Source: an uncultured bacterium (GTDB lineage: Bacteria; Bacteroidota; Ignavibacteria; UBA10030; BY39). Taken from it: a stretch of DNA of 64,000 bases. The translations under genes and the position numbers were made by a program. Shown one piece after another: positions 15,845 through 29,203 of this stretch. Where the stretch lies: the NCBI GenBank assembly GCA_937967455.1, contig CALCJK010000028.1, forward strand, positions 1-64,000, read 5' to 3'. Position 1 is the first letter of the stretch, and each line of letters begins with the position of its first letter. The notes under the pieces are model-generated. The model was not told where the DNA came from. It made no database searches and saw nothing but the letters and a program-made list of their open reading frames with translations.

Positions 15845-17314
15845 TTACGGATTTCCAACAGTTCCATAAAGGAAAGCTGTTACATTACCATTTGAACCTG
15901 TGACGGCAATTTTAACAACAACTGGCATACTATCTGGTGTACCACCTGGTGTAGCATCAACTACGGTCATTATAAAATCGGTTCTGCCAGGACCTCTAAA
16001 CAGATAATCTCCAAGTGGTTCATCTGGTAAACCACCAACCTTTGCAGCCCAATTTGTACCTTCGGGAGGTGAGAACTCAATTGTTGTAGCGATTCTTGTA
16101 CCAGGAGCTAATGGATTCCCATGCTGATCTGATATATTAACTGCAAATGTTTGTGAACCACCACGTGGAATGTTAATTGAAGTTGGGAACACTGATATTG
16201 TTGATAATCCAGAGAATAAAATTATGACGCTATCTTTTACTACCACACCATTCTCACCAATAGTTTGAGCATAAACCCAGGCATATCCAGGTCCATACCC
16301 CGGTGCATCATAATAAGGCAAAGGATTTCCACTATATAATGTTGCAGTTACCTGACCTTTTATATCAGTATAACGTGCAGCTGTAATTACACCGCCTGTA
16401 GTGTTGAAATACACCGCAGTTCCCTGGTGTACAGGATTACTATATTTATCGCCAACTTGAACAAGAATATTATTTGTTCTACCAACCCAATTATAAGCTG
16501 CAAAATTAAATTGTGTTGGACCTATTGAAAAATGATTTTGATCTGGTAATCCAGCATTAATTACAACACGTGTTGGAGTTGATGTTACAATCTTTCCATC
16601 GCTTTCCCGATGTAATAAAGCAACTATTTGTAAGACTCCGGCAATAGTACCACTATTCACTGTCGTTGCAACTCTACCAGAAGCATTAGTTATAGCCCAG
16701 GCTGGTGAGACATAGGCCCCACCTAGTACTGGTGGACCTTCAAGAGCAAAGTCGACTGTATCCCTTTGTGATATGCTGATTGGGAAACCAAGTGAATCTC
16801 TTACTTCATAAACAATAATTGCTGTTTCGGTTCCTCCTACACCATAAACTTTTAAATCAATTGTTTGTGGACCCATATAAGCGATTGTTTGTGGCATTCC
16901 AGATCCAGGAGGTGTTCCACCGCCACCTCCACCAATTGTAGTTGTAGTATCTAATTCAAGTATAAATGTGGGGACTGGATATGTATTTCCTGCCCTTACA
17001 CTAAAACTTAATGGAGATAAATCTTTATAACCTTCTTTTCTAACAGTTAGAGTAACGGATAATTCTTGAGTTGTATCAAGTTTAAATTCAAAATAATAAT
17101 TTCCTTCATTATCTGTAGAATCAATCATATTTATACTTGATGAGGATAGCCTAACCTGTGCATCCTGTACTGGGATATCCATATTCTGTTTTCTTTCTGC
17201 AACCTTACCCAGAATTTTTACAAGTAAATTTTCGGGTGGTTGAATAGTCTCCTCTTTACAACCAAAAAGGATTGTTAGAATAGCTATAAATAAATATGTA
17301 AAATACTTTTTCAT
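15845..17314 (-). CDS. Lipoprotein with carboxypeptidase-regulatory and Big-1 Ig-like repeats
   Basis: 489 residues. Lipoprotein signal with Cys19 ('ILFGC'), a carboxypeptidase-regulatory-like beta domain (about 30-120: 'VQDAQVRLSSS...DNEGNYYFEF'), a Gly/Thr/Pro linker (122-140), then three Ig-like modules of Big-1/invasin type (about 145-250, 258-370, 375-485), visible in repeats such as 'VVYEVRDSLGFPIS' and 'NPVHQGTAVYFNTTGG'. Last gene of the pilus-like operon, 30 bases after the secretin. I infer an outer-membrane, surface-facing adhesin or a structural partner of the secretin pore; a pilotin role cannot be excluded but the domains do not resemble known pilotins. Confidence 0.75.
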   Translation of the reverse strand: MKKYFTYLFIAILTILFGCKEETIQPPENLLVKILGKVAERKQNMDIPVQDAQVRLSSSSINMIDSTDNEGNYYFEFKLDTTQELSVTLTVRKEGYKDLSPLSFSVRAGNTYPVPTFILELDTTTTIGGGGGGTPPGSGMPQTIAYMGPQTIDLKVYGVGGTETAIIVYEVRDSLGFPISISQRDTVDFALEGPPVLGGAYVSPAWAITNASGRVATTVNSGTIAGVLQIVALLHRESDGKIVTSTPTRVVINAGLPDQNHFSIGPTQFNFAAYNWVGRTNNILVQVGDKYSNPVHQGTAVYFNTTGGVITAARYTDIKGQVTATLYSGNPLPYYDAPGYGPGYAWVYAQTIGENGVVVKDSVIILFSGLSTISVFPTSINIPRGGSQTFAVNISDQHGNPLAPGTRIATTIEFSPPEGTNWAAKVGGLPDEPLGDYLFRGPGRTDFIMTVVDATPGGTPDSMPVVVKIAVTGSNGNVTAFLYGTVGNP

Positions 17315-17344: not shown

Positions 17345-18577
17345 TTATTTGGTCCTATATCTCTCAAGATCTCTATCAAACTTTTCTCTTTGCTTTTCTA
17401 TTGGATTTTCTCTTATCTTTCTCGTTATCCTTTCAGGTAAGCTTGGCACCAATTCTACTTTAAGTAATATTGTTAATTCTTTTTTAGTGGTTTGAATTTT
17501 ATCATATCCAAAAATATATCTCAATCCGAATACCCACCAGGGCAAATCTTTCAATATTGGAATACCTGAACGAACTTTACTATCAAAATTTGAATAGAGA
17601 CCTCCAATTACAGCTTCCTCGCCATCGAGCATAAGTAATACAGTTTTTGCTTTCGTTCTGCTAATTGTTGGAGCTTCACCAAGTGCTGTAATCACACTTC
17701 TTTCAACATCAAGATCAAGATAAACAAACTCGTTATCACCTTCTCGAATTACATAAGGTGTTACCTCTATAATAGTACCTGTTGGTATTTGTTCTATTAC
17801 AGTATTTCCAGCAAAATCTTTTTTCTTAACAGAGATATCTTCGCCAACCTGAATTCTACCCTTCTCACTTGAACGAACCACAATCTGAGGATTTGAGATA
17901 ACTTCTCCTATATTGCTTTCTGAGAATAATCTAACAATTGCATCCAAGTTACCAAATGAAAGGTCTAATCCTTTTAATGTTGCATTAAATACAGTTGTAT
18001 CTGAAACTTTTCTGATGGTTTGTTGATCAATCACTAATGATTGAAATTTATCATCAGGTTTTGAGCGGAAAATGGACCAATTGACACCTGATTCGTGAAG
18101 TTTGTTAAGATCAACATTAAAGAAAACCGCTGAAATTTTAATCTCTCTACTATTCATTGTAACCGGTTCTTTTTCAAACTTCATTCCAATCACACCTTTT
18201 TCTGTAACCTGTTCACCTTTTGCTCCAGTTACCTCAATATAATCCTGATATTCCGTATACCACAAATTATTGACTTTTAGTATTAGTTCAAATGCATCCT
18301 GCCAGTGCATTCCTTTTATATCAATACCAATAGGATTTGTACGCTTTGCAGGATCGATAATCACTTTACCTAAAAATTTTCTACTAACATCACTAAGTAC
18401 AATAAGAGCTTTATCGAACGGTGTAGTCTGCGCAATTGAGACTATTTCATCTTTCGATACATACTCTCTTAAAATTCTTCTTTCCGTTTGCTGTGAGTAT
18501 GCATAGTTATTGCAAATAATTAAAAAGATAATTATTGTTATTAATGCAACAAATAAATTTTTTTTAGTTTTTTCCAT
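17345..18577 (-). CDS. Short secretin (PilQ/GspD family)
   Basis: About 410 residues from the ATG at 18577, chosen because GAGG sits 5 bases upstream and it opens straight into a signal peptide ('FVALITIIIFLIICNNYAYSQ'); the frame extends to 18604 inside the upstream gene. Residues 50-125 look like a single STN/N0-type domain ('VLSDVSRKFLGKVIIDPAKR...'). The rest is the secretin beta-barrel domain with 'VISNPQIVVRSSEKGRIQVGE', 'GTIIEVTPYVI' and 'GEEAVIGGLYSNFDSKVRSGIPILKDLP'. PilQ and GspD are usually 600-700 residues; this one lacks the extra N1-N3 or AMIN domains. It forms the outer-membrane gate of the machine. Confidence 0.88.
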   Translation of the reverse strand: MEKTKKNLFVALITIIIFLIICNNYAYSQQTERRILREYVSKDEIVSIAQTTPFDKALIVLSDVSRKFLGKVIIDPAKRTNPIGIDIKGMHWQDAFELILKVNNLWYTEYQDYIEVTGAKGEQVTEKGVIGMKFEKEPVTMNSREIKISAVFFNVDLNKLHESGVNWSIFRSKPDDKFQSLVIDQQTIRKVSDTTVFNATLKGLDLSFGNLDAIVRLFSESNIGEVISNPQIVVRSSEKGRIQVGEDISVKKKDFAGNTVIEQIPTGTIIEVTPYVIREGDNEFVYLDLDVERSVITALGEAPTISRTKAKTVLLMLDGEEAVIGGLYSNFDSKVRSGIPILKDLPWWVFGLRYIFGYDKIQTTKKELTILLKVELVPSLPERITRKIRENPIEKQREKFDRDLERYRTK

Positions 18578-18584
18578 TTTTTCC

Positions 18585-19469
18585 TCACTTCTGTTTTTGT
18601 CCATAACGAATATTCAATTCAAATTTTTCTATTATACCACCTTTATTAAGTGTGCATTCTATACGACCATTTATGTGATCAACTTTAGTAACATAACCAA
18701 GATATACTTCATCGCCTTCGCTAAGAGCTCTCATTTTATTGTTTTGATCAATTACAAATGCTCTACCAGGTACAATAGCTTTCAGATCAGATCTTTCAAT
18801 TTCAACCAAATCTTCAGTATTAGGAGGTAAATCTCTGAAGATTATTGGGGCAAATGGATCAGCAGTTAAAGATACTGGCATAATTTTTCTTTCACCGGAA
18901 GAAGAGTGTAATTCCTGGATATTTGAAAAATATGCATTCAGTATCATTTCGTAAGTAACAAGCAGTTGGGTTTTACCTGTGGTTTTATCTCTGCTTTCTA
19001 TACCTCTTAAATTTAGAGCTGAAATTTTGTAGAGCAATCGACTATTTTCTAAATACCAGATAAAACGAAATAAATTCTCGAAAGATGCTTCACCTTTTAA
19101 ATTATAGGTGTTAAATCCGTAATTATTGAAATTTTTTGTACCAACAAATAACATATCCAGTTTTAATTCACCACTTTGTCCTATTAATTGATTAATATAA
19201 TTATAGGTTTCACCTGTAATATTAACTGGTGGAATATCCTTGTTTCTTAAATCCCAGCGTTCTTTTATTGAGTTGAGTTGTTGACTTAACAAATTGTATT
19301 GATTTACTAGATCAGGTGTATTTTGCAATTCGGTTTCATACTTTTTAATTTCTTTTTCAACCTTCTCCATTTTCTTGGGTAGGTGAGCACCACTCATATA
19401 AAAACCAACTGCTAAAATAATTATCAGTAGAACGCCCAGAACGATTGTATTTCTCAGAATATAAGGCAT
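18585..19469 (-). CDS. PilO-like protein fused to a PilP-like C-terminal domain
   Basis: 294 residues. One transmembrane helix (about 7-26) is followed by a coiled coil (30-75) and a ferredoxin-like PilO domain (80-185: 'GETYNYINQLIGQSGELKLDMLFVG', 'FENLFRFIWYLENSRLLYKIS'). After a proline-rich linker, residues about 225-290 ('DLKAIVPGRAFVIDQNNKMRALSEGDEVYLGYVTKV') resemble the beta-sandwich HR domain of PilP/GspC, which contacts the secretin. PilO and PilP are normally separate proteins. It follows the PilMN fusion by 14 bases and the longest secretin frame overlaps its end. It would form the periplasmic alignment complex between inner membrane and secretin. Confidence 0.78.
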   Translation of the reverse strand: MPYILRNTIVLGVLLIIILAVGFYMSGAHLPKKMEKVEKEIKKYETELQNTPDLVNQYNLLSQQLNSIKERWDLRNKDIPPVNITGETYNYINQLIGQSGELKLDMLFVGTKNFNNYGFNTYNLKGEASFENLFRFIWYLENSRLLYKISALNLRGIESRDKTTGKTQLLVTYEMILNAYFSNIQELHSSSGERKIMPVSLTADPFAPIIFRDLPPNTEDLVEIERSDLKAIVPGRAFVIDQNNKMRALSEGDEVYLGYVTKVDHINGRIECTLNKGGIIEKFELNIRYGQKQK

Positions 19470-19483
19470 AGTAACCTCTTACA

Positions 19484-21100
19484 TTATTGTGGTTGTTCTT
19501 GTTGAGTTTGTTCTTCAATCTCTGGAGGTGGACTTTCAAAAAATATTTCTGAGTAAGGAACATCCTTCTCCTTAGGTATTTTCAACTCAAAATTGTAAAC
19601 AGTTTTTTCTCTTATTTCTCTCTGAAGCACTTTTCTTAACACAGTATTTTCATACAGGTTAGCAATTTTAGGAACACGAGAACGATATATCGAAAAACCT
19701 TCCAGGATAATTTCACCTTCACGCGACATTTTCAAATCAGTTAACCATAGTGAATTTATATTTTCAACGCCATTAGTAATTTTTTCAAGCATACGAGACC
19801 ATCTATCATAACCTGGTACTAGCGAATCGTAAACTGTAAGTGCAACTTTATATCTGCCAATTTGATTATTTATTTCATCGATCTTCTGTTGAATTCTACG
19901 ATTCTCTTCAACCTGTTCTTTTTTTCTCTCTAAGACCTCTTTTTTAGCTACCAGTTGTGCATTCAAATTTGAAATCTGATATGTAAAGTAAAATGTAGTT
20001 AAAAATATAAGTGCTAAAAGCAAATAACCATGCCAACCAAGCTTGAATGCTCTTTGCCCCTCTCTTATAAAGTCGGGTAATAAATTGAGAGGATAAAATG
20101 CAGGATTTGTTTCGTCAAGCATTTTCCAGGCTGTTGCAATTGCTACAGCATATTCAGGAATTTGTTCCTGTGTAGCAGCAGGTAAATCACTAGTATCTAA
20201 ATAAGGTGTTCGCAGATATTGTATATCAACTTCTGGAAGCTGATTCCTCAAAAACTCATCGAAAGCAATCCTTGTACTCTCTCCAGCAAGTAAAATCCTA
20301 TCAATCCTTGGTATTCCTAGGTTGTCCTGCTCAAGTAGTAGCCTACTATATACAGTATTTTGAATATTGAAGGAATCATATCCTTCGCCAAGTACAGGTG
20401 CAAAATGATAAAACTCTGCACCTTTCATAAAAATTAATCTTGTGAATTCTACACCAATATATATTATTACAGAAATCTCATCAGGAGCAAATCCATAATT
20501 ACCCCTTGCAAGATTCATAAGAGCAATATCTGAAGTTTCGATCAAGGGTATTTTAGGTATGCGATTATGGAGGAATGATTTAATTTCTTCAATTGTACGA
20601 TATAAACTAATACCATCTTCTCGAACAGCACACACCAGATTTCGATCAACTGAGTAAATTACATCAACTGCATCAGGATTTGGTTGAACAGATCTTACTT
20701 TTTTAAGTTCTTCAATAATTCGTTCTTTCAGTTTCATTCCCTTCAGACCAAAATCGCTTTCGACAACATGATAATATACACTTGGCTCTGAAATTGCGTA
20801 ACCAAGATAGTAAGTAGATGGTTTATAATTTGCAAGCAAACTTAATAAAATAGCATTATTATCTTCTCCTTCTTCTGCACGCTCACCGGAAGGTGGAAGT
20901 GTGAAAGTCTCCGTTGTAGTATCAAAACCTTCACTTAAATCTTTTAATTGTCTTTCTTCTAGTTTTGTTACAAGTGTAGCCGATTTAAGTTCGTCAATTT
21001 TAATAGTTTTCCCTTTACGGGATAATTTCGCAAATTTAATTTCGAGGCCATCAACAAATAGGCCTATAGCACTTTTTTTACTACCGCCGATGGTCGCCAT
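19484..21100 (-). CDS. PilM-PilN fusion protein
   Basis: 538 residues. Residues 1-335 are an actin-like PilM/GspL-type domain ('SAIGLFVDGLEIKFAKL', 'VIIYIGVEFTRLIFMKG', 'RILLAGESTR'). They run directly into 'FYPLNLLPDFIR' (335-346), the equivalent of the INLLP peptide with which PilN docks on PilM, then a transmembrane helix (357-377), a coiled coil (378-425) and a PilN periplasmic domain to about 510; the tail is Pro/Glu/Gln-rich. So two partners that normally meet through a peptide are one chain here. Starts at ATG with AGGAAAGGG upstream. Inner-membrane platform of the pilus. Confidence 0.85.
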   Translation of the reverse strand: MATIGGSKKSAIGLFVDGLEIKFAKLSRKGKTIKIDELKSATLVTKLEERQLKDLSEGFDTTTETFTLPPSGERAEEGEDNNAILLSLLANYKPSTYYLGYAISEPSVYYHVVESDFGLKGMKLKERIIEELKKVRSVQPNPDAVDVIYSVDRNLVCAVREDGISLYRTIEEIKSFLHNRIPKIPLIETSDIALMNLARGNYGFAPDEISVIIYIGVEFTRLIFMKGAEFYHFAPVLGEGYDSFNIQNTVYSRLLLEQDNLGIPRIDRILLAGESTRIAFDEFLRNQLPEVDIQYLRTPYLDTSDLPAATQEQIPEYAVAIATAWKMLDETNPAFYPLNLLPDFIREGQRAFKLGWHGYLLLALIFLTTFYFTYQISNLNAQLVAKKEVLERKKEQVEENRRIQQKIDEINNQIGRYKVALTVYDSLVPGYDRWSRMLEKITNGVENINSLWLTDLKMSREGEIILEGFSIYRSRVPKIANLYENTVLRKVLQREIREKTVYNFELKIPKEKDVPYSEIFFESPPPEIEEQTQQEQPQ

Positions 21101-21145: not shown

Positions 21146-22375
21146 TTATATTTCAACAGTTGCAAGATTCATTATTTGTTGTAATCTTCGTTTATTGTTT
21201 GCAAAATTAATTGCAGTTTCGAGCGAGATTCTTTTTGCCATATACAGCCGCTTTAAATCCTGTTCCATAGTTATCATTCCCAGATCTCCAGATTCTTGCA
21301 TCATCTGGTAAATCTCACCTGTATTGTTGTTTTTTATTGCAGCTTTTACTGATGGCGTTGCAACCATAATTTCCTTCGCTAAAACACGTTTACCATCCAA
21401 ACTTGGAATAAGTTTTTGTGAAATTACACATTTTAAAACATCTGCAAGCCGGTTTCTAACCCTTTCCTGTTCTATTGGTGGTACTTCACCAATTATCCTA
21501 TCGATACTTTCTACAGCCGAAGATGTATGTAAAGTTGAAAACACTTTGTGTCCGCTATCTGTAACCTCAAGAGCTGTCATTATGGTATCTGGGTCTCGCA
21601 TCTCACCTATAACTATTATATCTGGGTCCTGTCTGAGTGCTTGTATTGTACCTTCTTTAAATGATAGCACATCCCTGCCTACTTCCCTATGCCTGATTAT
21701 GCACTTATCTGATTTATGAACATACTCAACGGGCGAAGCTATAATTACAACATGCCCATCAACAGTATGATTATTTGCATCTATAATTGTGTCAAGTGTA
21801 GAACTTTTACCTGAACCAGTTATACCGGTTACTAAAATCATACCTTCTTTTGTATGTGCAAGATTCAAAATCTTTGATACATTGGGATGAAATTCTAATG
21901 CTTTGTAAGGTCTTACAGATAGGTTGATCGCTCGCATATTTAACGCAAGCTGGTCCAGATCGAAATACGCATCAGCACGAAAACGATACATTGCATCATC
22001 TTTTATGATGCTGTACGAAAAATCTAAGTTTCTATTTTCATAAAGGAATTGCCTCTGGCGTTCAAGCAAAATGGAAAGTATTAAAACATTTATTTCATCA
22101 AATGTAAATGTGCCAAGACCAGGTTCTGGTTTTTTAACACCCCAAACGCGGTACCAGATCCTACCTTGAGAGCCAAAGCCACCGAGATCAATATCAGAAG
22201 CATTGATCTCAAACATTCTCAGCAAAAAGCTATCGAGTAATCTTTTTATGATTACCCGTTCTTCCTGGCTTTGCCGATTCAGCAAATCACCGATTAGCAT
22301 CATTCGTTCTACACCGTAAGCAGTTTCAGGAATGCTTTCGGCAATCTGCTTCAATATTATTTTCGCTTCTTCCAA
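21146..22375 (-). CDS. pilT: PilT-like retraction ATPase
   Basis: 409 residues of the secretion ATPase superfamily. Walker A GITGSGKSS (184-192), Asp-box region 'IIASPVEYVHKS', Walker B 'DIIVIGEMRDPDT' (252-264), His box 'STLHTSSAVESIDRI'. The C-terminal 'VKAAIKNNNTGEIYQMM...LGMITMEQDL' is the PilT pattern corresponding to the AIRNLIRE region, which distinguishes it from PilB. There is no CxxC zinc loop. TTG start at 22375 with AGGGA about 5 bases upstream. Its presence means the filament is probably retractable. Some N-terminal sequence (1-70) is longer than in classical PilT. Confidence 0.9.
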   Translation of the reverse strand: MEEAKIILKQIAESIPETAYGVERMMLIGDLLNRQSQEERVIIKRLLDSFLLRMFEINASDIDLGGFGSQGRIWYRVWGVKKPEPGLGTFTFDEINVLILSILLERQRQFLYENRNLDFSYSIIKDDAMYRFRADAYFDLDQLALNMRAINLSVRPYKALEFHPNVSKILNLAHTKEGMILVTGITGSGKSSTLDTIIDANNHTVDGHVVIIASPVEYVHKSDKCIIRHREVGRDVLSFKEGTIQALRQDPDIIVIGEMRDPDTIMTALEVTDSGHKVFSTLHTSSAVESIDRIIGEVPPIEQERVRNRLADVLKCVISQKLIPSLDGKRVLAKEIMVATPSVKAAIKNNNTGEIYQMMQESGDLGMITMEQDLKRLYMAKRISLETAINFANNKRRLQQIMNLATVEI

Positions 22376-22497: not shown

Positions 22498-23775
22498 TTA
22501 AAATTGTGGGATTCTAACATTTTCCCACCAATTTACAATTGCAAGTGTTTTTCTATAATAACCCGGGAAATAAGGCGGCCTGGTATTAACATCGGCAAGT
22601 CGTGGATCAAAATAATACCTTTTTGAAAAACCAGTTTTAAGAGTATTAGTACCAGTATTAAATGTACCAACAGCACCCCTTGTATCCTGAACAATACCAC
22701 CAATAATTTTAAGGTATCCACTAATCGGTCTGGTATTGTAATTTTCAGCTGTAAATGAACCAGAACGTGAAAATATTGCTGCATGAATCTCACAATTATT
22801 TCTATTAGCTGTATTATCTGTAACTACAACATTACCATTAGCAACCAAACCCAATAAATCATCGCTTGTGGGATTAATCAAAGGGTTTCTCTCATATATA
22901 ACATCATCATCAATATAAATATTTGTACCGGAAGCAATTGTAAGTTTACCATCAAGTTGACCACCTGAAACAGTTACTCTTTGTGTACTATATATTACAC
23001 CGTTAAATGATGGATCATTTAACGAAATTGAATCTATAATAGGACCAGTAGCAGAAGTTCTTATATATGCTTTACCGTCATTATTAGATGAACTACCAGG
23101 GTTGAGCGTAATCCAGATATTAGTAGTATACCTTTTCCCGCCGGAAGTAGAAGCGGCTATTAACTCACTCAAGTCAGTTGGAAATTGTATTGGTGCAATA
23201 CCAGTTTCATAACCTTTTTTATAGATAGCTTTACTTTGCCCATTACCGGGTTTAGGGTCTATATGCTTTGCAGTAGTTAATTTTTCCATAAAAACCGGAG
23301 AACCACTAATGTGTATATTACCATTTGAATGAACTCTACCCCATACTGTATCGCCTGTTATCCAGAAAACATTTCCTTCAAAATTTGTCATCCAGGCAAA
23401 CATAGAAAAGCTTTGGAATCTTTGTTTACTGAAAAAAACCTCAACAGTATCGCTATAATTTTTAAAAGTTGAAACAGAACGCAATCTAAGAGTACTTATA
23501 TTCAAGCTATCTACACGTACAGTAACTGCACCACCTTTAAAAAGACCACTTGAGAAAGTTTGGTTTGTAATCACACCTCTTAGACTTGGATCTTGATAAA
23601 CTTTACTTATTCCTACATTCGCTCCAGCAACTGCAAGATTATGAGATTGGTTTATATCAAAATAATAAGCCATATTTCCAATTGCCCTGTTTTCGAGAGA
23701 ATTAAGCCGAATCCCAATTAATCCAAAAATTATTCCGAAACCAATTACAAGTATTATTGCACCTTTTCCAAACAT
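22498..23775 (-). CDS. DUF4900/PilX-like pilus accessory protein
   Basis: 425 residues. The N-terminus 'MFGKGAIILVIGFGIIFGLI' is one hydrophobic helix directly after the start, confirmed by AGGAG 8 bases upstream. Then 'ENRAIGNMAYYFDINQSHNLAVAGANVGISK' resembles PilX/GspK-type minor pilins. From about residue 110 it is beta-rich, with 'WGRVHSNGNIHISGSPVFMEKLTTA' and 'DDDVIYERNPL...LLGLVANGNVVV', the DUF4900 pattern of surface proteins. Gly5 could be a short prepilin leader end, but there is no Glu at +5. Likely a large minor pilin at the tip or an initiation subunit. Confidence 0.75.
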   Translation of the reverse strand: MFGKGAIILVIGFGIIFGLIGIRLNSLENRAIGNMAYYFDINQSHNLAVAGANVGISKVYQDPSLRGVITNQTFSSGLFKGGAVTVRVDSLNISTLRLRSVSTFKNYSDTVEVFFSKQRFQSFSMFAWMTNFEGNVFWITGDTVWGRVHSNGNIHISGSPVFMEKLTTAKHIDPKPGNGQSKAIYKKGYETGIAPIQFPTDLSELIAASTSGGKRYTTNIWITLNPGSSSNNDGKAYIRTSATGPIIDSISLNDPSFNGVIYSTQRVTVSGGQLDGKLTIASGTNIYIDDDVIYERNPLINPTSDDLLGLVANGNVVVTDNTANRNNCEIHAAIFSRSGSFTAENYNTRPISGYLKIIGGIVQDTRGAVGTFNTGTNTLKTGFSKRYYFDPRLADVNTRPPYFPGYYRKTLAIVNWWENVRIPQF

Positions 23776-23795: not shown

Positions 23796-24413
23796 TTAAC
23801 GATTAAAATTTTGTGAAGCTAAACGAGTTTGACGCCAGTAAGAACTTGAATAAAGAGCTTCTCTTTCTCCAAGTTTAATATCTCTTGGATCTCTATAGAG
23901 AGCATAAGGATTTTGAACTTCGAGTGTAATTTCAACAATTTTTATCATCTTCAGGTCAGAACCAGTTACAGGTGTAGTTAATGTATCGAGTTGATTTTGA
24001 CTAAAATATCGTAGTCTAAAATCTGTAACAATTCCAATACTTTGAACTGGATTATTATTAACCTTGCGGTGTAAAAATCGGTCCATAGTATTCTGTGTTT
24101 GACTAAGCTCGCTTGTTGAGCCTGCCCAATATTTAATTGTGTCTGGAGTGCCATTTCTGTCTAAATCAGATAAAAATGTTATAGCAGTATCCAATGCTTG
24201 TAAAACTGTTGCTTGATCTTCAGCCACGCCAACACCCATATTTCTAAATTCACCTTCTACTATTTGAGCGGTGGAAATCAATAGCTCCTGAACTAATACA
24301 TCACCGTTTAATACAGTAGAATGTTGATATATTAGGAAGTTTGCATTAAAGACACTGAGTAGCAAAACACTACCTATAAACATCGCCATAATTATATCTA
24401 ATAAAGTTGCCAT
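23796..24413 (-). CDS. Pilin-like minor subunit (PilW-like)
   Basis: 205 residues. N-terminal hydrophobic helix 'MATLLDIIMAMFIGSVLLLSVF' starts right at the Met; GAGG is 6 bases upstream, so there is no hidden leader. If Met is removed, Asp falls at position 5, where canonical pilins have Glu. Residues 25-75 ('YQHSTVLNGDVLVQELLISTAQIVEGEFRNMGVG') are the amphipathic half of a pilin helix, and the rest is a beta-rich globular domain ending 'REALYSSSYWRQTRLASQNFNR'. It fits the PilW/GspJ class of minor pilins. Gene is 18 bases from the previous one. Confidence 0.7.
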   Translation of the reverse strand: MATLLDIIMAMFIGSVLLLSVFNANFLIYQHSTVLNGDVLVQELLISTAQIVEGEFRNMGVGVAEDQATVLQALDTAITFLSDLDRNGTPDTIKYWAGSTSELSQTQNTMDRFLHRKVNNNPVQSIGIVTDFRLRYFSQNQLDTLTTPVTGSDLKMIKIVEITLEVQNPYALYRDPRDIKLGEREALYSSSYWRQTRLASQNFNR

Positions 24414-24430
24414 AAATTCCTCATTAATTG

Positions 24431-24967
24431 TTAATCAAAATGGAAATAACCCATAACAATGGAAGATTTAAGAGTATCATCGCTTGTTGGATCTTCTCGC
24501 CAAATTTTAATATCGCATCTTTTTACAAAAGTTCGTGTATTCATTTTTTGATCTATATTATTAGGGTTAACATAATAAACATAAAATTTGGTTTTATATC
24601 TACCTACAACTCCAGGAATATTTTCGTCCACAATTTCATAATTATTTAAATCATCGAAATCATCAAATGTCTTAAAATCCGCTTCATAGGGTTCACCGAC
24701 TGGAGGAGGGTTTTCCTTCCCCAGGTTTGAAGGATGAGTAAGCAAACCAATTTCTGACGGTGTTAAAAAAGAATCTATTGTTGCTTCATCAAAATGTAAT
24801 CCATATGCAAGTTCTGTATATGTAGTAAGAAGTGTGAGAGCAGTAATTCCCTGCTGTGCACTTTGAACTGTTTCCCCACTTTGTCCCAATAGCTGATAAA
24901 ATGTAACTAATAAAGTAGATAGTAGGACAAAAGCTCCTAATGTTATTAATGTTTGATATGTCGACAT
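24431..24967 (-). CDS. Pilin-like minor subunit
   Basis: 178 residues. The N-terminal helix 'MSTYQTLITLGAFVLLSTLLVTFYQLL' begins at the start codon (AGGAG 8 bases upstream). It is followed by a polar helix 'GQSGETVQSAQQGITALTLLTTYTELAYG' and a small globular domain. The lollipop outline is that of a type IV pilin, but there is no leader, no Gly at -1 and no Glu5. It sits between the PilB gene and the PilW-like gene. Not recognisable as a named family from sequence alone. Confidence 0.65.
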   Translation of the reverse strand: MSTYQTLITLGAFVLLSTLLVTFYQLLGQSGETVQSAQQGITALTLLTTYTELAYGLHFDEATIDSFLTPSEIGLLTHPSNLGKENPPPVGEPYEADFKTFDDFDDLNNYEIVDENIPGVVGRYKTKFYVYYVNPNNIDQKMNTRTFVKRCDIKIWREDPTSDDTLKSSIVMGYFHFD

Positions 24968-24986: not shown

Positions 24987-26780
24987 TTAATCATCTGTTG
25001 TAGCTGCTGCTATTTCATCTAATGTTGTTACTCCTTCTAAAATTCTTTCTATACCTGAACGTCTTAGAGTCCACATTCCATCTTTGATTGCTTGATCTCT
25101 AATTGCAGCTTCGTCAACTTCAGCACCTGATTTAACAATAATGTTTCTTATTTCACGAGTAAAATACAATGCTTCATGAATTGCTGCTCTTCCTTTATAC
25201 CCTCCGTTACATTTTTCACAACCAACGGCTTCATAAATGGTGTGTGTATCAAGTTGTTCTTGAGTAAATCCGAATTTTGTATATACATCATAATCCAAAT
25301 CTTTTTTAGGGATTGGACGTTTGCAAAGCGGGCAGAGAGTTCTAATTAATCTCTGAGCTACAATAATATTGATAGCATAAGCAATCAAAAATGGTTCTAT
25401 ACCCATTTTATACAAACGTGAGATTGCACTTGGTGCATCATTTGTGTGCAATGTAGAAAAAGTCAAGTGACCTGTATTTGCAAGTTTTATAGCTATCTCA
25501 GCAGTCATTTTATCTCTCATCTCTCCTACAAGCACTATATCCGGGTCGTGACGCAGAATACCGCGCAATGCGCTTTCAAAATCCATCTTTGGACCAATTT
25601 TAAGCTGTCTGGCACCTTTGATTATATATTCAACTGGATCTTCTACAGTTAATACATTTACTGTAGGATCAATCACCTGATAAAGTGCTGCAATTAGAGT
25701 AGTACTTTTTCCACTTCCTGTGGGTCCAGTCAAAATTATTATTCCTTGTGGTTTAGAGATTGCTTTATAAAAGAATTCCTTTGCTGGTCCCTGTAATCCA
25801 AGCTTGTTTAAATCTGTTATAACTTTGCGATCATCCAGTACTCGAATTACAATGCTTTCATATTTGTGCTTAAATTCAGTACCCACGATTGGCATAATAG
25901 ATACGCGGAATCGAATTTGATGTCCATCTATTACCCGCTGAATAAATCCATCTTGAGATGATTCTCTTTCAAACCTATCCACATTTTTTGAACGGTCTTT
26001 AACAACTGCTGCGATTGCTTCTGGCATTGTATTTTCTTGTGTATGCCAGAGCTTTAAATTACCATCAATACGAAAGAGAAAATCTGTACGATTACCTTCT
26101 TTTGCTACAATGTGAACATCGCTTGCTCCCTGTCGAACTGCTTCTACAAGAGCACCTTCAACAAGATTGATCAAAGCACTTTTATTTATCTCGGCTTCGA
26201 GAGCTTCTTCATCAAGCCCTTCTTCTTCCCTAACTTCCAGGTTATCTAATTCAGTTTGCTCTAAAAGCTTTAAAAATTCATTTTCAGGAGGAATAACCTG
26301 TTCAATTAAATTTTGTAGATCTTTTAATCTGCAATAACAGACCTCATATTTTTTTACCTCAAAATTTCGAGCCACAATTGGAATCTTACGATCAGTTGGG
26401 TCCGCTGCAATGATAATCAATTTTTCAGGAACTTTTTCATCAAACTTTAAAGGCAACATTTTTACTTCAGAAAGCATAGAACGATAATTTTCAGGAAGGG
26501 AATCAACAAATTTTTTTATGAAATTAATTCGCTCCTGATCTATTTTCTCGTCAGCTAGATATACTTCTCTAAATGCATACAAGTTTGCAACTTCACGAAA
26601 CACTGCATCATGATCTATATTAAATTCTTTAACTATAATCTGACCGAGATTTCTACGATTTTTAAAATCTTCTTTCTCTTTTATGCGTAAAGATTTCTCA
26701 AGTATCTCATAATCAATGATACCTTTTTTAAGCAGTGTGTATCCTATTTTATCAGTAATGTCTATTTCGCGCATATGCAA
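24987..26780 (-). CDS. pilB: PilB/GspE-type assembly ATPase
   Basis: 597 residues. N-terminal MshEN/T2SSE-N domain (about 1-165), N2 domain with 'ASDVHIVAKEGNRTDFLFRIDGNL', then the RecA-like core: Walker A GPTGSGKSTT, 'VEDPVEYIIKGARQLKIGPKMDF', Walker B 'DIVLVGEMRD', 'STLHTNDAPSAISRL'. The zinc-binding CPLCK...GCEKC loop and 'YKGRAAIHE' mark extension ATPases (PilB) rather than PilT. It powers filament assembly through PilC. The gene starts 11 bases after pilC. Confidence 0.94.
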   Translation of the reverse strand: MHMREIDITDKIGYTLLKKGIIDYEILEKSLRIKEKEDFKNRRNLGQIIVKEFNIDHDAVFREVANLYAFREVYLADEKIDQERINFIKKFVDSLPENYRSMLSEVKMLPLKFDEKVPEKLIIIAADPTDRKIPIVARNFEVKKYEVCYCRLKDLQNLIEQVIPPENEFLKLLEQTELDNLEVREEEGLDEEALEAEINKSALINLVEGALVEAVRQGASDVHIVAKEGNRTDFLFRIDGNLKLWHTQENTMPEAIAAVVKDRSKNVDRFERESSQDGFIQRVIDGHQIRFRVSIMPIVGTEFKHKYESIVIRVLDDRKVITDLNKLGLQGPAKEFFYKAISKPQGIIILTGPTGSGKSTTLIAALYQVIDPTVNVLTVEDPVEYIIKGARQLKIGPKMDFESALRGILRHDPDIVLVGEMRDKMTAEIAIKLANTGHLTFSTLHTNDAPSAISRLYKMGIEPFLIAYAINIIVAQRLIRTLCPLCKRPIPKKDLDYDVYTKFGFTQEQLDTHTIYEAVGCEKCNGGYKGRAAIHEALYFTREIRNIIVKSGAEVDEAAIRDQAIKDGMWTLRRSGIERILEGVTTLDEIAAATTDD

Positions 26781-26790
26781 TCTTTTATAC

Positions 26791-28170
26791 TTAGAATAAA
26801 AACATACCTAATGAATTCAAGAAATTAATAAATGCTCCTGGTGGTTTAGGACGAATCATCGCAGTTTCAGATGATACTATTGTAAGAGCTGTTAAAATAA
26901 CCATAATCACCATGGCTAACCATATTTGGATATATTCAATTGTATTTTTCATTTTATAGGAAGTTTCTTTTTCATAATACTCAGCAAGTTGATGAGCAGT
27001 ATTTTTTACTGTACCAGTTTCAGCACCACTATGAAATCTGGATATTGCAGTTTTTGTAAAAACTCCGGACGCTTCAAAAGCTTCTGTAATGCCAGCCCCT
27101 TTTTCAACCATCAGTGGTATGGCGATAGTTTTAATCTGATTTTCCATATATCTGTTCCCGCAAGCTTCAGCTGCCATTCTAATAACATCAATATTTTCAC
27201 CAGAACCGCTATAAAGTGCATGAAAAACCCGGCAAAAGATTTCTATATTAGTTTTATGAAGTAATGTTCCAATTACAGGAATTTTCCAGATAAAGCGATC
27301 TAGAATTTGTTTACCTCTTGGAGTTGTAAAAAATCGCACAGCCAATATAATCGGGACTATAGTGATGATTGATATAATTACAATATGTTCTATGATAAAA
27401 TCACTCATTTTCAGGGTAGCAGCTGTCATTGGTGGCATTTCAATTTTGAACTTAGCAAAAATCTCAGCCATTGGTCTGAAAATCCAGCCAATGTAATATA
27501 TAACTGCACCAATAAGTGCTAACATTGTTACTGCAGGTGTAATGAGTGCACTTTTTAAATCTTTTCTGAACTGAGCTTGTCTTTCAAGAAATTTTGCTGT
27601 GCTTTCATAAATTTCTGCCATATTACCACTTTTTGATGCAAGTCCTAACATATGTGCTGTAAATTTTCCAAAAACTCCTTCCTGCTTCAGAAAAACCTTT
27701 TCACTATCTTTACCTTGCTTCAACTCATTGTTAATTTCCCTGACAGCATCACGCAGTGTTTTGTTTTCAATATCATTTGCTAAAAGTTGAAGTATTTCGT
27801 TATATGGCAATTTTTGTCGTATTAAATCTGCACTTACTCTAACGAAAGTAACAATTTCGCTCATTGGAGGTTTTGGTTTTAGATCAAAAAGCTTTTTACG
27901 AACATAAATAACTCTAAAGCCCATTTTGGATAGAGCTTCTTCTACCTCTTCTTTTGTAAATGCTTTTTGTTCACCTAAAATTGGTTTTTCAGTTCCGCGC
28001 TGAACTTTATATATAAATGTAGCTCTGGGCGTAACATTTACAACTTTAAACTTTCTTTGAGCAGCCATCTGTTGAGCTTTTTCCTTAGCAAGTCGAAAAC
28101 CATCTGCTTCTATTATACCAACGATGGCTTTACCACTTGTTGACAGTCCTTCTATTCTAAATTCTGGCAT
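26791..28170 (-). CDS. pilC: PilC/GspF-type platform protein with N-terminal extension
   Basis: 459 residues. Residues 1-95 form two small repeats ('EADGFRLAKEKAQQMAAQRKFKVVNV' and 'KEEVEEALSKMGFRVIYVRKK') that look like the N-terminal extension of GspF. Two GspF helical domains follow (about 105-225 and 310-430), with three transmembrane segments (about 210-230, 262-285, 430-450). Family marks include 'GLASKSGNMAEIYESTAKFLERQ' and 'RFHSGAETGTVKNTAHQLAEYYEKE'. Inner-membrane platform that couples ATPases to the growing filament. Confidence 0.92.
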   Translation of the reverse strand: MPEFRIEGLSTSGKAIVGIIEADGFRLAKEKAQQMAAQRKFKVVNVTPRATFIYKVQRGTEKPILGEQKAFTKEEVEEALSKMGFRVIYVRKKLFDLKPKPPMSEIVTFVRVSADLIRQKLPYNEILQLLANDIENKTLRDAVREINNELKQGKDSEKVFLKQEGVFGKFTAHMLGLASKSGNMAEIYESTAKFLERQAQFRKDLKSALITPAVTMLALIGAVIYYIGWIFRPMAEIFAKFKIEMPPMTAATLKMSDFIIEHIVIISIITIVPIILAVRFFTTPRGKQILDRFIWKIPVIGTLLHKTNIEIFCRVFHALYSGSGENIDVIRMAAEACGNRYMENQIKTIAIPLMVEKGAGITEAFEASGVFTKTAISRFHSGAETGTVKNTAHQLAEYYEKETSYKMKNTIEYIQIWLAMVIMVILTALTIVSSETAMIRPKPPGAFINFLNSLGMFLF

Positions 28171-28295: not shown

Positions 28296-28679
28296 CTACT
28301 CAAAATCTCCTGTAAATGAAAAATTACCTAAATTTCCAGTACTATCAAGAGTCACTATAACACTTCCATATCCAAATTTTGATACAGCAGTAAATGTAAT
28401 TGCCTGAGGGGTAACAACATAATTAGTATAGTCTGCATTTTCATTGGATCTTAAATTCTGTGGTAAATTAAAGCCATTATATGTTCTTCCACCACCACCT
28501 AACGGCTCTGGTCTCAGTCGGTACCGGTTTGCATATTGTCCTATATTCATAAGATCGTTTATAATAGCATTCTTATTTGCATTAACAGAAGTACCTTGAA
28601 ACAAACCTATACCAACAGCTATCGCTATACCAACTATAATCACACCTAATATTATTAATACTAATTGCTGTTGACCCAT
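28296..28679 (-). CDS. Second pilin-like protein with MGQQQ N-terminus
   Basis: 127 residues. Starts 'MGQQQLVLIILGVIIVG', a hydrophobic helix of about 22 residues, then 'NANKNAIINDLMNIGQYANRYRLRP', a glycine turn GGGG followed by TYNG, and a small beta-rich domain. AAGGTG lies 6 bases before the ATG, so no leader was missed. Its first 25 residues are nearly the same as those of the upstream paralogue (28799-29203), while the C-terminal halves differ. Predicted filament subunit. Position between the stronger-looking first pilin and pilC, flanked by stem-loops, suggests tuned expression. Confidence 0.8.
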   Translation of the reverse strand: MGQQQLVLIILGVIIVGIAIAVGIGLFQGTSVNANKNAIINDLMNIGQYANRYRLRPEPLGGGGRTYNGFNLPQNLRSNENADYTNYVVTPQAITFTAVSKFGYGSVIVTLDSTGNLGNFSFTGDFE

Positions 28680-28705
28680 AATTCACCTTTTAGTTAATAA
28701 ACATA

Positions 28706-28752
28706 TACTGCCATTTACATCGGGTTTTTATCATATCTTGTAAATGGCAGTA
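28706..28752 (-). promoter_or_regulatory. Intercistronic stem-loop after first pilin gene
   Basis: TACTGCCATTTACA (28706-28719) and TGTAAATGGCAGTA (28739-28752) are a perfect 14-bp inverted repeat with a 19-base loop. It sits between the two pilin genes with no clear T-run, as expected for an element that protects the upstream pilin mRNA and reduces read-through. Confidence 0.7.
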
Positions 28753-28798
28753 CATCGGAATCGGTAGTTTAATTGTAAAAGAACTCAGATCGATTTAA

Positions 28799-29203
28799 TT
28801 ATTCAAACTGATCTGTGTAGGTCCACTGCGACAATCGACCAGTTGAATCAACCACTGCTGTAACGGTACCATAACCTTGTGAAGATGTAGCTGTAATTGT
28901 CACATCTGTAGCTGTAACTGTTGCTGCATATGTACCGTTTTCATTTTGAGCATATTTTGAAGGTATTGCATATGGTTGTGCTGGCGTACAACCAGAGCCA
29001 TCGTATGTACCGCCACCGCCACCCATGCTGCAAGGACGTATTTTGTGTTGATATGCGTTTGCTGCAATGTTGTTCATATCATTCACTATTGCATCACGAT
29101 TTGATTGCACGCTACCTGCAGTAAACATCGAGATACCAACTGCAATTGCGATACCAACAATGATAACGCCCAAGATGATTAATAAAAGTTGTTGCTGACC
29201 CAT
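28799..29203 (-). CDS. Major pilin-like protein with MGQQQ N-terminus
   Basis: 134 residues. The N-terminal helix 'MGQQQLLLIILGVIIVG' is preceded by a strong AAGGAG 7 bases before ATG, so the start is firm. It is followed by 'SNRDAIVNDMNNIAANAYQHKIRPCSMGGGGGTYDGSGC' and a beta-rich domain of Thr/Ala-rich strands ('TVTATDVTITATSSQGYGTV'). Cys in 'RPCSM' and in 'GSGC' could form a disulfide. Promoter-proximal gene of the operon, with a sigma-54-like promoter upstream and a stem-loop downstream, so probably the most abundant subunit. It lacks the canonical prepilin motif (Gly, aromatic, Glu+5). Confidence 0.85.
   Translation of the reverse strand: MGQQQLLLIILGVIIVGIAIAVGISMFTAGSVQSNRDAIVNDMNNIAANAYQHKIRPCSMGGGGGTYDGSGCTPAQPYAIPSKYAQNENGTYAATVTATDVTITATSSQGYGTVTAVVDSTGRLSQWTYTDQFE

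Follow-up and report, generated by a model that had tools for sequence, protein, structure and literature searches.

We analysed a 64,000-nucleotide stretch of DNA (hereafter the window; positions 1 to 64,000 of contig CALCJK010000028.1, assembly GCA_937967455.1) from an uncultured bacterium of the Ignavibacteria. Its minus strand carries a pilus-type operon that opens with two paralogous pilin-like genes, pilA1 and pilA2. The original prediction, made from the sequence alone, held that both proteins begin MGQQQ and have no prepilin leader. Both open reading frames (ORFs) were found on the minus strand where it had placed them (Table 1), with the 127 and 134 residues encoded at 28299-28679 and 28802-29203, and both open MGQQQL(V/L)LIILGVIIVGIAIAVGI. 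The start codons lie in the contexts AAAGGAGTTAAAAT-ATG and AAAGGTGAATT-ATG, and the codons preceding them in frame read TAA-AAT-ATG and TGA-ATT-ATG. Since the frame is closed by a stop codon two codons ahead of each start, there is no room for a longer leader, wherever the ribosome-binding site lies. The in-frame stops thus provide a stronger argument than the Shine-Dalgarno sequences from which the absence of an overlooked leader had been argued, and they exclude an upstream start with a normal leader. Also as predicted, there is no Glu at +5; indeed, no Glu occurs within the first ten residues of either protein, and Pro22 is missing as well.

The two proteins are 52% identical in a protein comparison, and the differences are unevenly distributed. 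Within codons 1-27, 9 codons are identical, 15 differ synonymously and 3 change the amino acid, while the corresponding numbers for codons 28-55 are 3, 7 and 18. The proposed selection on the near-identical N-terminus is borne out by these counts. Near-identical N-termini combined with high synonymous divergence argue for purifying selection while the DNA diverged, and rule out a recent duplication as the source of the shared N-terminus.

The operon and its minor-pilin-like genes

The operon is ordered pilA1, pilA2, pilC, pilB, three further pilin-like genes, pilT, PilM/N-like, PilO/P-like, the secretin gene and a gene for a lipoprotein with an immunoglobulin (Ig) domain. The three additional subunit genes, which go beyond the two originally noted, are leaderless too. 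None of the five subunits has a leader, nor do their orthologues, and the three additional proteins likewise start straight into the hydrophobic helix. Orthologues of minor pilin-like 3 start MFGK/MFGR or MG[RK]. In 16 of 21 orthologues of minor pilin-like 2 (minor2), residue 6 is Asp, which becomes position 5 after Met removal; most orthologues carry Ala, Thr or Ser at position 2. When the start Met is equated with the leader, M↓ATLLD of minor2 aligns with G↓FTLIE of canonical prepilins (arrows precede the mature sequence), with Asp at the Glu5 position. Among the subunits, minor2 alone has Asp in the Glu5 register. The alignment suggests that Met removal, and not cleavage further in, marks the mature end.

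Table 1. Genes of the pilus operon in the window.
Gene or product	Position	Strand	Observations
pilA1, leaderless major-pilin-like protein	28799..29203	minus	134 aa, MGQQQLLLIILGVIIVGIAIAVGI...; in-frame stop 2 codons upstream
pilA2, pilA1 paralogue	28296..28679	minus	127 aa; N-terminus as in pilA1; TGA 2 codons upstream
PilC/GspF-type platform protein	26791..28170	minus	T2SSF 1.8e-27
PilB extension ATPase	24987..26780	minus	T2SSE 3.8e-101; closest solved structures type IVa PilB, 1e-88
Minor pilin-like 1	24431..24967	minus	leaderless (MSTYQTLITLGAF...); most orthologues start M[NSTG][TSL]GQ or similar
Minor pilin-like 2 (PilW/PpdB-like)	23796..24413	minus	leaderless (MATLLDIIMAMF...), Asp at residue 6; weak PRK10557 match
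Minor pilin-like 3 (PilX-like position), DUF4900-like	22498..23775	minus	leaderless (MFGKGAIILVIGFG...); DUF4900 E 0.001, below cut-off
PilT retraction ATPase	21146..22375	minus	TIGR01420 322.7 bits, above cut-off of 319.1; PilT structures 5e-69
PilM-like domain, then transmembrane segment and PilN-like coiled region	19484..21100	minus	weak Amuc_1101 PilM-like match, C-terminal part, 6e-7
PilO-like, possibly with PilP-like C-terminal part	18585..19469	minus	position, architecture, conserved gene order
Secretin (PilQ)	17345..18604	minus	PF00263 2.6e-28; PilQ TIGR02515 1e-23, below cut-off
Lipoprotein with Big_1/invasin-type Ig domain	15845..17314	minus	PF02369 5e-13; operon end

PilB and PilT have their closest proteins of known structure in type IVa systems. 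The PilC of the operon is the only T2SSF protein found in the genome, and no other candidate major pilin was seen near it. Among the genes of the alignment complex the secretin is clear, the PilM/N match is weak and the product is an apparent PilM-N fusion, and the PilO/P-like protein, for which Pfam gives no significant match, is assigned by its position. The gene order pilA-C-B-T-MN-OP-Q is kept as far as KSB1, and most of it in Kryptonia and Calditrichota.

Pfam and NCBIfam searches put no pilin name on the MGQQQ proteins, and the N_methyl motif (PF07963) has no match among the operon proteins or elsewhere in the genome. An AlphaFold2 model of pilA1 (predicted local distance difference test, pLDDT, 92.6) consists of a single helix, residues 2-55, and a four-stranded antiparallel sheet. 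The minor2 model (pLDDT 80.5) likewise has a helix, residues 2-57, followed by a sheet, and its top Foldseek match in the PDB is the type IV-like pilin TTHA1219 (5g23; probability 1.00, near-significant E of 1.2e-3). Because of this predicted architecture and the operon context, filament subunits, as originally proposed, are by far the likeliest identity of the MGQQQ proteins.

Distribution of the MGQQQ family and of the prepilin peptidase

The distribution of the family was determined by whole-genome searches. It was detected in 53 of 60 relatives, mostly of the same order, and, in a draw of 296 genomes from across the phylum, in 101. Contigs carrying it bear names from Ignavibacteria, Melioribacteraceae, Kryptonia, KSB1 and Calditrichota. 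Part of the contig sample was recruited with the seed MGQQQLLL; the same N-terminus emerged from the whole-genome searches, which were run with the full-length protein or a profile. The 174 distinct family ORFs, taken from many genomes, include 156 with the start MGQQQ, 7 with L/VGQQQ and 6 with MG[TSN]QQ, and Gly2 showed no variation in a tally of 106 ORFs. A median of 4 codons separates the start from the upstream stop, and in 95% of the 174 ORFs this gap contains no alternative start codon. An overlooked leader is thus excluded by in-frame stops in most relatives as well as in the window. Even remote members belonging to other families and classes keep the motif, and throughout the family a near-invariant N-terminal helix is joined to a variable head. 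The MGQQQ observation is confirmed and far broader than first stated, spanning several classes and phyla.

Often several MGQQQ paralogues are present per genome (loci L031-L110, L155-L174), up to ten in one case (G319: 10 matches), which suggests interchangeable major pilins. In two loci the conserved start reads as an isoleucine codon (L170:8921-9382 (+), ATA, IGTQK...; a family ORF of L013, IGQQQ); these are possibly non-standard starts or sequence errors. In L169:7242-7988 (+), an ORF without MGQQQ, the N-terminus instead resembles a cytoplasmic zinc ribbon (MNCPSCGSQNESSAKFCGICGK...) and is fused to a pilin-like helix and head; the genome also carries leaderless pilins.

A search of the whole genome for prepilin peptidase (PilD; Peptidase_A24, PF01478), which had been put forward as a check, found none. 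The genome of the window is 99% complete in 39 contigs, and no Peptidase_A24 match was obtained at E<=0.001 or even at E<=10, while 12 of 14 control genomes gave a match. With a profile built from divergent A24 enzymes of the Bacteroidia type, only a frame with four stops was retrieved. A diverged peptidase was therefore rejected, as neither search gave anything credible. Among the relatives the enzyme was found in 5 of 60 genomes, compared to 53 of 60 for the pilin family, and in the phylum-wide draw in 11 of the 101 family-bearing genomes. It is missing from about 90% of family-bearing genomes. None of 12 further Ignavibacteria-type genomes reached through the named contigs contained it, nor did the single-contig, about 99% complete family-bearing genomes G191, G254 and G354.

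Where PilD does occur, it tracks canonical N_methyl prepilins. In the 60 relatives such prepilins were present in 4/5 genomes with PilD and in 3/55 of the remainder (Fisher p=3e-4). The pilD locus was read in 14 genomes having both the peptidase and the MGQQQ family, and in 13 of these a canonical G↓F[ST][LM]TE prepilin is encoded nearby (the exception is G040). Further, the PilB proteins encoded beside MGQQQ genes (49) and those beside pilD (19) form separate clades. We rejected the idea that genomes having the peptidase use it for their MGQQQ pilins, as its gene lies near those of canonical prepilins and of a PilB from another clade.

Proposed assembly and alternative explanations

The operon probably encodes a complete type IVa-like pilus, capable of extension and retraction, whose subunits carry no class III leader, are independent of PilD and lose at most their Met. 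We also consider it likely that a whole lineage of type IVa-like pili, covering much of the non-Bacteroidia part of the phylum plus KSB1 and Calditrichota, dropped proteolytic pilin maturation, so that subunits would be translated assembly-ready and the prepilin peptidase step would be dispensable. Major and minor pilins would have lost the class III leader, so that translation would begin either with the first residue of the mature protein or with the one preceding it. They would insert N-in/C-out as signal-anchored proteins, and at most the initiator Met would be removed by methionine aminopeptidase, for which Gly2 is a good P1' residue. PilB and PilC would then polymerise them via their N-terminal helices, without PilD cleavage or N-methylation, and PilT could withdraw them. 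In the filament core the invariant Gly-Gln-Gln-Gln cap presumably replaces the contacts of N-methylated Phe1 and Glu5. The leaderless genes, their wide conservation, the absence of PilD, the operon and the predicted pilin architecture are what the sequences show; Met removal, assembly, retraction and the role of the Gln cap are deduced from them.

Several points weigh against it. The filament, its mature N-terminus and any phenotype of the pilus are predictions. Position 2 of minor pilin-like 3 (often Phe) and of minor pilin-like 1 (often Asn) is poor for methionine aminopeptidase. Foldseek of pilA against the PDB gave no significant match, and viral models likewise gave none; a profile search of PDB sequences ranked three Geobacter PilA proteins first, but weakly (E 0.04-0.12). 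Most of the genomes are metagenome-assembled, so that absence of a gene could reflect an assembly gap in a single genome, but not in most of them. An A24 peptidase coexists with MGQQQ pilins in KSB1 and Calditrichota genomes, where it might conceivably act on them, and a non-homologous peptidase removing Met-Gly is also conceivable. Finally, one genome, G014 (99% complete), has a canonical leader-bearing prepilin (RKGFSLTELMVVLVIIGVL; L119:1186-1623 (-)) and no detected prepilin peptidase.

An alternative is that the operon encodes a type II-secretion-like or short-pseudopilus machine, in which the MGQQQ proteins form a pseudopilus instead of an extended pilus that retracts. A small secretin and the presence of at least two similar subunits in each genome would fit such a machine, and a Bacteroidetes 'type II secretion system' (T2SS) branching with type IVa pili is already known (PMC6668835, PMC5553014). 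We regard this as unlikely, since the operon PilT scores above its curated cut-off and PilB and PilT both have their best matches among type IVa proteins, whereas the T2SS-like loci of Bacteroidia that were read have leader-bearing pilins, an A24 gene and a PilB of a different clade. As for type II secretion features such as leader-bearing pseudopilins GspG-K with GspO, the genome has no N_methyl and no A24 match, and contains PilT; GspC/L/M were not searched separately.

The original prediction had left open whether cleavage occurs after Gly2 or only Met is removed without PilD. The second is favoured, as no A24 gene was found, while the first has lost ground. In that first version, MG would be a minimal two-residue leader cut by an unrecognised non-A24 peptidase, leaving a mature QQQLLL..., perhaps with an N-terminal pyroglutamate. 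It would account for the invariant Gly2, Gly being the usual -1 residue, and some minor pilins likewise start MG. However, minor pilin-like 1 and 3 share no common Gly2, position 2 of minor2 is mostly Ala, Thr or Ser, and its acidic residue reaches position 5 only with Met-only removal. With no A24 peptidase in the genome, a second, unknown peptidase would be needed, and we judge a Met-Gly leader improbable.

We consider it very improbable that the MGQQQ proteins sit in the membrane as anchored proteins without being filament subunits. Such a reading could draw on the lack of a curated family that calls them pilins and on the non-significant Foldseek result for pilA. Against this, their first position in a pilC-pilB-pilT operon is kept over several phyla, the pilin-type architecture is predicted with high confidence, pilins are the best PDB sequence matches, the N-terminal helix is near-invariant beside a variable head, and the only PilC of the genome has no alternative major pilin candidate nearby. 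That a prepilin peptidase exists in unassembled sequence is hardly credible: A24 genes can sit apart from pilus loci and the assembly has 39 contigs, but at high completeness 55/60 relatives and 90/101 genomes with the family lack the enzyme, and it would have no leader to cleave, since the genes encode none.

Relation to known systems

The predicted leaderless pilus shares with type IVa pili homologous PilB, PilC, PilT and secretin, tentatively also PilM/N/O/P-like genes, a pilin-type subunit architecture with a predicted pilin fold, and minor pilins in the operon. It differs in that no subunit has a class III signal peptide, the major pilins lack Glu5 and Pro22, and the genome has no prepilin peptidase (PF01478). 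The machine would thus work like a type IVa pilus while lacking two of its defining features, the class III leader and the peptidase. Loci of the MSHA (mannose-sensitive haemagglutinin; MSH) type also have no local prepilin peptidase, which is encoded elsewhere in those genomes (PMC6668835). Both kinds of loci are without pilD, but here the subunits are leaderless and the genome has no peptidase at all. The Cytophaga-type Bacteroidetes 'T2SS' belongs to the same phylum and has components derived from type IVa pili; in contrast to the operon described here, it has an A24 gene, CHU_3197 (PMC5553014), and the similar loci L209 and L210 have leader-bearing pilins and a PilB of the other clade. In these two Bacteroidia loci a small divergent A24 gene adjoins the leader-bearing pilin. 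Judging from VKA↓YSLTEIL..., this pilin seems to have Ala at -1, another kind of departure from the usual Gly.

In Melioribacter roseus, pilT, pilQ, pilB and pilC are present, while pilD was not found and pilA was reported missing, so that the set was considered incomplete (PMC3534657). MGQQQ genes were found in the Melioribacteraceae loci L070 and L079, and the family would fill the pilA gap of M. roseus and remove the need for pilD. According to reviews, the core conserved among type IV filaments includes a class III signal peptide and a peptidase dedicated to prepilins (PMC4471445). Detection models treat the peptidase as mandatory (PMC6668835), and such systems are therefore scored as incomplete, as with M. 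roseus (PMC3534657). No description of leaderless or peptidase-independent type IV pili was found in the open-access papers searched. A large Ignavibacteria-related group appears to build type IV pili from leaderless subunits, which, if true, adds many pilins that have so far gone unannotated. Should these pili assemble, the mechanism does not inherently require leader cleavage or N-methylation, and the real roles of the leader, Phe1 and Glu5 become testable.

Relatives of the Ig-domain lipoprotein encoded at the operon end are encoded near pilA in loci L053, L079, L156, L160, L166 and L174. It may therefore be a surface protein associated with the pilus, or an adhesin.
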